From positions 1 through 38,165 of IMG/VR virus record IMGVR_UViG_3300032291_002500: a stretch of 38,165 bases of DNA; one strand, 5' to 3'. The translations under genes and the position numbers were made by a program. Below are positions 18,630 to 20,704 of the stretch, piece after piece (position 1 is the stretch's first letter; the number at the start of each line of letters is the position of its first letter). The notes beneath the pieces were generated by a model that did not search any database, had not been told where the DNA came from, and saw only the letters and a list, made by a program, of their open reading frames with translations. The DNA comes from a virus.

Positions 18630-19124
18630 CTATTTTGTAAGTTCTAATTTGCGTGCATCCTTTACCGCCAAACATGCCGTTTGACCTTCGCTATCCAATC
18701 CCTTCCAAAGTGTCTGCAATGTAGCCAAATCAGGTGCGGTTCGGATTGATTCAATTATGGCTGAATAGTCCTGAGGTGCTTTTTGACTAACCTTCTCATT
18801 CCGCACCCTCAACGCATCCGTTACATCCCCAAACGCTTTGACCTTATCAACTCCGATTTTTACCTGCTGACCTGCCCACTTTTCAATAGCAGGCGTTCCG
18901 AGCAATCTCGTTATCGTCTTGCAGTTCGTCTTGTTCAGGATAATCGGCTTCGTTTCTTTCGTAGTCGCTACGATGCAATCAGACTTCTTTCCATCCGCAC
19001 CCGGTACGGCTTTCTTTTCAACCGTTACGAGTGTAACGATTACTTCCCGATACTGATTGTCCGATTCGAATAGGTCGTGACTTCCGAAGTAGTCAGGGTT
19101 TGTTAATTGCTTCCAATGTGTCAT
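18630..19124 (-). CDS. Recombination-associated protein, probable OB-fold / annealing partner
   Basis: A 164-aa protein, first gene of the minus block. ATG 19124 is chosen: the candidate -7 box lies at about 19161-19169, so an earlier start at 19163 is unlikely. HWKQLTNPDYFGSHDL at the N-terminus and KPIILNKTNCKTITRLLG with KVKAFGDVTDALRVR later are a combination I know from phage genes next to YqaJ exonucleases. It may bind single strands or replace a classical annealing protein; none other is seen. Confidence 0.6.
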   Translation of the reverse strand: MTHWKQLTNPDYFGSHDLFESDNQYREVIVTLVTVEKKAVPGADGKKSDCIVATTKETKPIILNKTNCKTITRLLGTPAIEKWAGQQVKIGVDKVKAFGDVTDALRVRNEKVSQKAPQDYSAIIESIRTAPDLATLQTLWKGLDSEGQTACLAVKDARKLELTK

Positions 19125-19202
19125 AAATTCGTTTTTTTCTGTTTTAACGGAAATAATTAGCAAAGGTTACAAACTTTTTTATTCTTATTTGCGTTTTGTT
19201 CT

Positions 19203-19210
19203 TATATTTG
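19203..19210 (+). promoter_or_regulatory. Helicase operon -7 box (TATATTTG)
   Basis: TATATTTG fits TAnnTTTG. Transcription should begin about 5-7 bases later, placing the whole folded leader (19217-19305) in the RNA. The upstream -33 box is not clear. Confidence 0.55.
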
Positions 19211-19216
19211 TAAAAT

Positions 19217-19305
19217 ATCCGGGTGGAAGCGGATTCAAAATATTTTCCTTCATCGGAAACAAACCCCTTGAAATAGCAGTCTTCCACCTGCTGTTTCGGG
19301 GGTTT
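19217..19305 (+). promoter_or_regulatory. Kissing-loop RNA leader of the helicase gene
   Basis: Hairpin 1: ATCCG (19217-19221) pairs with CGGAT (19230-19234), loop GGTGGAAG. Hairpin 2 is long: AAACCCC (19261-19267) with GGGGTTT (19299-19305), then after a small internal loop GAAATAGCAG (19270-19279) with CTGCTGTTTC (19288-19297), loop TCTTCCAC. Seven loop bases, GTGGAAG and CTTCCAC, are exact complements. The long hairpin ends 13 bases before the ATG at 19319. Confidence 0.65.
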
Positions 19306-19318
19306 ATTATTTAATAGA

Positions 19319-20704
19319 ATGCCTGAAATACATCTTAGACCATATCAACTCAAAGCATTAAACGAACTTCGGGCGTCTATTTTGAAGTTTAAACGATCAA
19401 TACTTGTCATGCCCACAGGATCAGGCAAGACAACCGTTGCAGGATTTATGGCAAAGGAATCTACATTGCGTAAAAAACGATTGCTGTTTATCGCGCATCG
19501 AACCGAACTACTAACCCAAGCGCGAAGCAGATTCCAGCAACTTGGTCTTAGTTGCGGAATTATTCAGGGTCAAAAATCAATTATTGAGCCTTACTTGAAT
19601 GTCGCGTCCGTTCAAACCGTTCGGAATAGGTTGTCTTTTATGAGACCCTATGATATTATAGTAATTGACGAATGTCACCTGTCAATGGCGTCGTCATATC
19701 GCAAGGTTCTCGATCATTTCCCTAATGCTTTCGTTGTCGGATTGACTGCAACACCGCGCAGGCTTGATGGAAAACCGCTTGGAGAAATTTACAAAGATTT
19801 GGTTAATCCTATTTCAATAAAGGATCTTGTCGAATCAGGCAATCTTGTTCCTGCAAAATATTCAGAAGCGGTATCCTCGGCAGACCTGACCGGAGTCGCT
19901 ACGATTGCTGGCGAGTTTAGCCAATCAGAATTATTTTCAAGGTTTGACAAACCAACGCTTTATTCAGGCGTTATTGATCACTACAAATTAAAAGCAAATG
20001 GAACATCATTTATCTGCTTTTGCGTCAACATTGAACACTCAAAGAAGACAGCAGAGGCGTTTAATCAGGCTGGAATATCCTGCGTGCATATCGACGGGGA
20101 ACTGCCAACAAACGAACGCAAGCGACTAACAGACTTATTTCGGTCTGGGGCGGTTATGGGTGTCTGCAATGTAAATCTTTTTACCGAGGGGTTTGATGTG
20201 CCTCATGTTCAGACCTGTATTATTAATCGCGCAACTCAATCAGAAGCGTTATTTATGCAAATGATCGGTCGTTGCCTCAGACCATACCCCGGCAAATCTA
20301 ACGCCATCGTTCTTGATCATGGGCGCAATGTTACTGAAAGGCATGGATTTCATGACGACGACAAAGAATGGTCATTGACTGAAAAAGCGAAGAAAAAGTC
20401 TAACAAATTAGGTGCGTTTGGCGTTAAAACTTGTTCACAATGTCAATACATGATGCCTCCTTCGGTTAGGTTTTGTCCTGAATGCGGGCATACTGATTAT
20501 CAGCCAATTGAAAATAAAACCACAGAAGCCGAGATTTTTCGAGATATTACCGCCAAAGACCGCCCGAAAAGACCTGAACATTTGCGAAAAAAATATACCG
20601 AAATGAATGAGTCAGAATTAAGGCAAGTACAGCAGTTATTAGGATACAAGGACGGCTGGGTTTATGCAATGTTAAAAGTAAAAAAGAAGTACCAAAACAA
20701 ATAA
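19319..20704 (+). CDS. SF2 DEAD/DEAH helicase with C-terminal zinc ribbon
   Basis: A 461-aa helicase. N-terminal Q-like motif LRPYQLKAL; motif I MPTGSGKTTVAG near residue 31; motif Ia FIAHRTELL; motif II IDECH (DECH box) near residue 115; motif III LTATPRR; C-terminal domain motifs HIDGELPTNERKRL, FTEGFDVP and QMIGRCLRP (motif VI). At about residues 377-396, CSQCQ..., CPECGH make a four-Cys zinc ribbon. It belongs to the restriction-helicase/UvsW-like group used in phage replication and branch migration. Five bases separate it from the primase gene. Confidence 0.88.
   Translation: MPEIHLRPYQLKALNELRASILKFKRSILVMPTGSGKTTVAGFMAKESTLRKKRLLFIAHRTELLTQARSRFQQLGLSCGIIQGQKSIIEPYLNVASVQTVRNRLSFMRPYDIIVIDECHLSMASSYRKVLDHFPNAFVVGLTATPRRLDGKPLGEIYKDLVNPISIKDLVESGNLVPAKYSEAVSSADLTGVATIAGEFSQSELFSRFDKPTLYSGVIDHYKLKANGTSFICFCVNIEHSKKTAEAFNQAGISCVHIDGELPTNERKRLTDLFRSGAVMGVCNVNLFTEGFDVPHVQTCIINRATQSEALFMQMIGRCLRPYPGKSNAIVLDHGRNVTERHGFHDDDKEWSLTEKAKKKSNKLGAFGVKTCSQCQYMMPPSVRFCPECGHTDYQPIENKTTEAEIFRDITAKDRPKRPEHLRKKYTEMNESELRQVQQLLGYKDGWVYAMLKVKKKYQNK

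Follow-up and report, generated by a model that had tools for sequence, protein, structure and literature searches.

The locus

The DNA analysed here, which we refer to throughout as the window, comes from a virus and spans 38 kb (38,165 nucleotides, IMG/VR record IMGVR_UViG_3300032291_002500). Its VirE-type primase is similar to the primases of Flavobacterium, Cellulophaga and Nonlabens phages. At 19217-19305, where two gene blocks diverge, the + strand carries three hairpins, P1, P2 and P3, in the leader of a helicase gene. The features are these:

19203-19210, + strand: Bacteroidota -7 promoter element, TATATTTG, matching TAHHTTTG; transcription start inferred at 19215/19216
19217-19234, + strand: P1 hairpin, from folding; 5 bp, 19217-19221 with 19230-19234 (ATCCG/CGGAT), loop GGTGGAAG at 19222-19229; both-side changes at 3-4 of the 5 pairs, and found independently by RNAalifold
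19222-19229, + strand: kissing loop 1, GGTGGAAG; partner 19281-19288; 10 distinct co-varying states among relatives
19235-19243, + strand: linker J1/2, TCAAAATAT, A-rich, likely spanning the kissing helix
19244-19259, + strand: P2 hairpin, from folding; TTTCC at 19244-19248 with GGAAA at 19255-19259
19261-19305, + strand: P3 hairpin, from folding; terminator-like, 18 bp and one bulged T
19281-19288, + strand: kissing loop 2, CTTCCACC, complement of 19222-19229
19303-19313, + strand: U-rich tract, TTTATTATTTA, 3' of the P3 G-run
19319-20704, + strand: SF2 helicase gene (ResIII and Helicase_C by Pfam; PHROGs), with the VirE-type primase next; control by the leader is inferred

P3 is formed by 19261-19268 and 19270-19279 pairing with 19288-19305, which leaves the T at 19269 bulged and the loop TCTTCCAC at 19280-19287. 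It is the only terminator-like site in 18900-19600, and its end lies 13 nt from the ATG at 19319. The two loops are complementary over 7 bp, GTGGAAG (19223-19229) with CTTCCAC (19281-19287), or over 8 bp with C19288. The fold of the window leader beats 199 of 200 shuffles (z -2.8). By our own rough arithmetic, a stack of P1, the kissing helix and P3 would measure ~80 Å, which the linker with P2 is just able to span, and intramolecular kissing is therefore feasible. An earlier note, made from the sequence alone, had described a 5-bp first hairpin with its loop at 19222-19229, a second hairpin of about 17 bp with a small internal loop, a 7-bp kiss between the loops, and a gap of 13 bases to the ATG. 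All of these hold, the second hairpin being refined to 18 bp with one bulged T and the kiss reaching 8 bp if C19288 takes part; the third hairpin, P2, was missing from that description.

In F. johnsoniae, a TAHHTTTG box lies 4-5 nt upstream of the transcription start (PMC6847099). Because TATATTTG matches this -7 box, we infer a start at 19215/19216, 1-2 nt before the leader begins; P1 would therefore stand at the very 5' end of the RNA, an inference made without transcript data. That the leader directly follows a match to the sigma-A-type Bacteroidota promoter is plain, and a full or one-mismatch box is found upstream of nearly all members of the family described below. Many members carry an extra hairpin, P0, between the promoter and P1, and two (L158 and L160) have a tRNA-Met there instead, so that the RNA is inferred to begin with, or close to, a hairpin or tRNA. 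P0 is variable in sequence (e.g. L012 6133-6154, L023, L021) and is missing in the window's clade, where P1 is 5'-terminal. The tRNA-Met gene (L158 4624-4697, also in L160) is placed as if substituting for the 5' hairpin. As a separate observation, cumulative T-A skew in the window peaks at 19312, exactly at the leader, where the direction of transcription switches.

Covariation of the stems and of the kissing loops

The leader is kept in four IMG/VR contigs whose helicases are 90-98% identical, and the loop pairs of these contigs (GGTGGAAG/CTTCCACC in two, CTGGCAGA/TCTGCCAG in L003 and GGTGAGAG/CTCTCACC in L004) are all complementary. Approximately 20 distinct leaders were gathered by scanning for P3-derived patterns that ignored the loops, together with a covariance model lacking the kissing pairs. 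All 14 distinct sequences in the alignment pair fully across the 7-bp kissing core, which has two-sided changes at 5 of its 7 pairs and one-sided changes at none. The 20 homologous leaders present 10 distinct heptamer pairs, each complementary at 7/7 positions, giving 70 of 70 pairs; when heptamer partners are shuffled, the mean is 49 pairs, and 70 is not attained in any of 200,000 shuffles.

The stems behave in the same manner. Given no structure as input, RNAalifold recovers P1 and P3, with double changes at 14 of 19 pairs, and over the 20 sequences P1, P2, P3 and the kiss together outscore every shuffle and every slid register. In L154 and L155, the lower P3 stem reads GGG/CCC in place of CCCC/GGGG, yet the structure is retained, and so is the U-tract. 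P2 is TTTGAC/GTCAAA in L064 and L143, and shows covariation in a second subfamily as well (see below). An A-rich motif like AAARATATT recurs in other members as a counterpart of J1/2, but this is weak evidence, the motif having been picked after the fact. Across the leaders there are 61 G-U pairs versus 3 A-C mismatches, and we therefore take the folded molecule to be RNA of the + strand.

We conclude that the loops of P1 and P3 form a kissing helix of 7-8 bp that is maintained by compensatory changes. The earlier note had proposed that covariation be sought among related phages, and compensatory changes are found in stems and loops alike. Its claim that the arrangement is unlikely to have formed by chance also held, the comparative test being decisive, with 10 loop-pair states all perfectly complementary.

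A P3-like terminator hairpin with the loop ACTTGCAGC also occurs as an orphan (L014 943-1044; L020 12092-12193, minus strand), with its own promoter and no matching P1 loop. It could be a decayed copy or a trans-acting one.

Distribution among phages

More distant members were sought by architecture. A loose kissing-hairpin descriptor without a promoter gives 0.21 matches per shuffled window, whereas an anchored version, for which the two loop-complementary hairpins must also have a promoter box and a T-rich tail, lists ~36 distinct matches across 2.1 Mb of phage DNA, compared with 2 across shuffled sequence (~0.04 per window). A few of the 36 fall within coding regions and appear to be chance matches (e.g. 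L028 2812, L115, L161). Because complementarity selected the members found in this way, they were excluded from the covariation statistics, which take in only members found without a descriptor. Subfamily II (L165, L170, L192 and L214), recovered by the two-hairpin descriptor, has GCATCAC/GTGATGC and CCATCAC/GTGATGG as loop pairs and displays covariation of its own.

The architecture is present in cultured phages, namely Flavobacterium mumin, filifjonk, morran and 11b, Cellulophaga phi10:1 and Bacteroides B40-8. The leaders of mumin6-4, filifjonk9-1 and morran9-1 are ~85-91% alike, with the loop pairs GTGGAACG/CGTTCCAC, GTGAGACG/CGTCTCAC and GTGAGAAG/CTTCTCAC, respectively; those of phi10:1, 11b and B40-8 are GTACGAC/GTCGTAC, CGGGCAG/CTGCCCG and CCGCCAA/TTGGCGG. 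Cultured phages gave no match when searched by BLASTN with the window leader as query, and these members surfaced only through the architecture search. The helicase leaders of FPSV-S1 and lotta8-1 are without the element, L056 and L057 are ordinary terminators, and viral patterns based on P2 returned chance matches in coding sequence.

Within the limits of our searches, the element is absent from the host chromosomes sampled. The anchored descriptor gave two weak, chance-like matches in 1.5 Mb of Bacteroidota chromosomes, a pattern scan of 84,980 genomes for cellular homologues returned unrelated matches only, and models R1-R3 found no real match in ~300-395 Bacteroidota genomes. This is a sampling result: there was no positive control genome, and the E-values of home-made models are rough.

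Downstream genes

The leader usually heads a replication module, the first gene of which varies: an SF2 helicase; a small ORF with an initiator and DnaB; a prim-pol; or a primase with small ORFs. Nearly identical leaders stand before unrelated first genes, and it is therefore the leader, not the gene, that is the conserved unit. Autoregulation by the helicase through its leader was rejected as unlikely on the same grounds. The leaders of L003 (2714-2813) and L029 (7117-7216, minus strand) stay similar as far as the end of P3, while the helicases that follow are only ~52% alike, which points to recombination joints between replication modules at the leader edge.

Further copies lie upstream of an HNH endonuclease gene in mumin6-4, of a Rha-type regulator gene in B40-8 and, in the L021 phage, of a gene that inspection of L047 by eye assigned to the GIY-YIG-like endonucleases. 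One phage may hold two or three elements with differing loop pairs, as do the L021 phage and mumin6-4. The copies directly upstream of the endonuclease genes (L235 5161-5270 in mumin6-4; L047 1486, minus strand, in the L021 phage) have unrelated loop pairs.

A cis-acting attenuator as the favoured reading

The mechanism that we consider most likely, with a probability of roughly 0.5, is transcription attenuation in cis by the leader, with the kiss tuning a terminator hairpin. Termination and regulation are both inferred, as we have no RNA data. What is seen directly is a strong P3 hairpin followed by a U-rich tail, shortly before the start codon: in 35 members, the first 8 nt after P3 contain a mean of 6.2 T and a minimum of 5, the figure for the 8 nt preceding the start codon being 2.8 T. 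A strong stem with a U-tract behind it is what marks an intrinsic terminator, and transcription attenuation is therefore favoured; the leader shows one of the features that an attenuator of this type calls for, a stable 5'-leader hairpin with a U-rich tract after it.

In this picture, P3 would be an intrinsic terminator, and the leader would set the entry of RNA polymerase into the replication operon. The kissing helix would form intramolecularly as the P3 loop exits the polymerase and would alter the folding of P3, in a direction that remains unknown. A phage or host factor may be involved, reading the shape of the loop-loop helix and not its letters, and a private loop pair for each element would keep folding intramolecular when one cell holds several leaders.

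Several observations weigh against this assignment. Classical attenuators require a competing antiterminator helix, unless a protein or a kiss does that job. A conserved helix of this kind was sought among the leaders and none was found, and the classical attenuator model is therefore weakened. P3 is always 9-37 nt from the start codon, which suits control of translation or stability equally well; the U-tracts are imperfect in some members (B40-8, phi10:1); and a P3-like orphan exists without P1 (L014 943-1044). A leader peptide was also considered and rejected by eye, the reading frames through the element being unconserved and without a shared start. The roles suggested in the earlier note, namely a new RNA element, replication-operon control or a protein-binding RNA, are supported by covariation, 5' position, replication-operon context and the lack of an Rfam family, but the choice between transcription and translation control, and any protein partner, remain unproven.

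Alternative explanations

The alternative that survives best, and one that remains possible, is an element acting on translation initiation or mRNA stability, in which the kissing structure would shield the 5' end and keep the start region either accessible or occluded, in hosts without Shine-Dalgarno sequences on their mRNAs. In its favour, no member is without a hairpin (P0 or P1) or a tRNA at or close to the inferred 5' end, P3 is close to the start codon in all of them, at 9-37 nt, and initiation in F. johnsoniae depends on mRNA structure and on A-3 (PMC6847099). Against it, the distance from P3 to AUG is variable, only 21 of 35 members have A at -3, and the U-tract, specific to the base of P3, would be unnecessary for such a role.

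Less likely is a trans-acting RNA of ~90-100 nt terminated at P3, the loops of which would kiss a leader still being transcribed from a second genome copy and switch off the operon, giving copy control or homotypic exclusion in the manner of plasmid antisense systems. Close relatives do differ in their loops yet stay self-complementary (the window and L002 versus L003 versus L004; mumin versus filifjonk versus morran), as incompatibility groups do, and P3 resembles a 3' end. Covariation cannot separate pairing in cis from pairing in trans, however; intramolecular pairing would be expected to win, and no second matching hairpin was found in the window, where GTGGAAG occurs once on the + strand.

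We regard as very unlikely, though not excluded, a replication-origin or primer RNA, in which the leader transcript would form an R-loop and prime DNA synthesis beside the replication genes. The element usually heads replication modules, and transcription in the window diverges at it, but the same architecture precedes homing endonuclease genes (the second copy in mumin6-4, the third in the L021 phage) and the Rha-type regulator gene of B40-8, and GC skew in the window has no extreme at the element. Chance, or a DNA-level element such as protein-binding palindromes or single-stranded DNA hairpins, is all but excluded: inverted repeats do adjoin a replication gene, but double-stranded DNA binding explains neither the co-variation of two separated loops, nor G-U tolerance on one strand only (61 versus 3), nor a promoter at the start of the element.

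Significance and relation to known RNAs

Returning to the attenuator, the kissing-loop leader is a real RNA element, its pairing kept in many Bacteroidota phages while the letters change; that it works as a switch, or as a brake, in the expression of phage genes is inferred. To our knowledge, almost nothing is known of gene timing in Bacteroidota phages, those of the gut included, and here an apparently undescribed RNA element recurs in unrelated phages at key operons. The cultured phages mumin, filifjonk and morran provide natural alleles with matched loop differences, which makes the proposal immediately testable, and the many orthogonal loop pairs would be useful gene-control parts for Bacteroides and Flavobacterium. 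A bolder reading, which we take as a genuine possibility, is a new, phage-specific class of RNA control defined by loop-loop shape and not by sequence: each promoter would have a private kissing-loop lock, made of a 5'-end hairpin and a terminator-like hairpin, forming mutually orthogonal switches across Bacteroidota phages, with one factor sensing the loop-loop helix.

ColE1 RNA I and RNA II, which act with Rom/Rop, have fully complementary 7-nt hairpin loops with many alleles and control replication. The leader shares the complementary 7-nt loops, the many sequence alleles and the link to replication; in ColE1, however, two opposite-strand transcripts pair, whereas here a single inferred transcript supplies both loops from the same strand, and no antisense TAHHTTTG box was seen opposite the leader by eye, without a systematic scan. 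Antisense attenuation of Shigella icsA by RnaG likewise employs a trans antisense RNA, on a cellular gene, in contrast to a kiss and a terminator-like hairpin within one phage leader. The c4 antisense RNA and P4-type immunity RNAs are phage leader RNAs with complementary segments that control early or replication genes, as the leader may; c4 (RF01695) nevertheless gave no cmscan match in the leaders, and host phyla and arrangement differ. The put antiterminator RNAs of HK022 resemble the leader in being paired hairpins close to the start of early phage transcripts, but they are not known to kiss, they lie upstream of terminators where the leader contains a terminator-like hairpin, and their hallmark is direct binding of RNA polymerase with factor-independent antitermination.

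Other likenesses are looser. The STAXI motif (Weinberg 2010) is a pseudoknot near DNA-handling genes. Phage phi29-type pRNA combines intermolecular loop kissing with a packaging role, which the replication-operon position of the leader does not suggest. The highly conserved ligand-binding core expected of a riboswitch is lacking, as architecture is kept across subfamilies while sequence is not, apart from the weak A-rich linker motif. HMP2_4078 (Fremin and Bhatt, 2021; PMC8040213) is, like the leader, a structured candidate of ~100 nt near Bacteroidetes phage domains; unlike the leader, it is described as palindromic and without a predicted terminator.

The open-access literature that we searched does not describe the element, which appears to be new and falls under leader RNAs or attenuators, with the reservation that HMP2_4078 was not compared by sequence. 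Against Rfam 15 (cmscan), the window matches no family at gathering score, L012 and L016 have chance matches only, outside the element, the leaders of L236, L238, L239 and L042 have no match at E<=1, and that of L235 has none. Elsewhere in morran9-1, L238 178-212 is a strong match to the Rfam DUF805b RNA (RF02914, E 9.5e-13), ~20 nt before a ParB-like gene.
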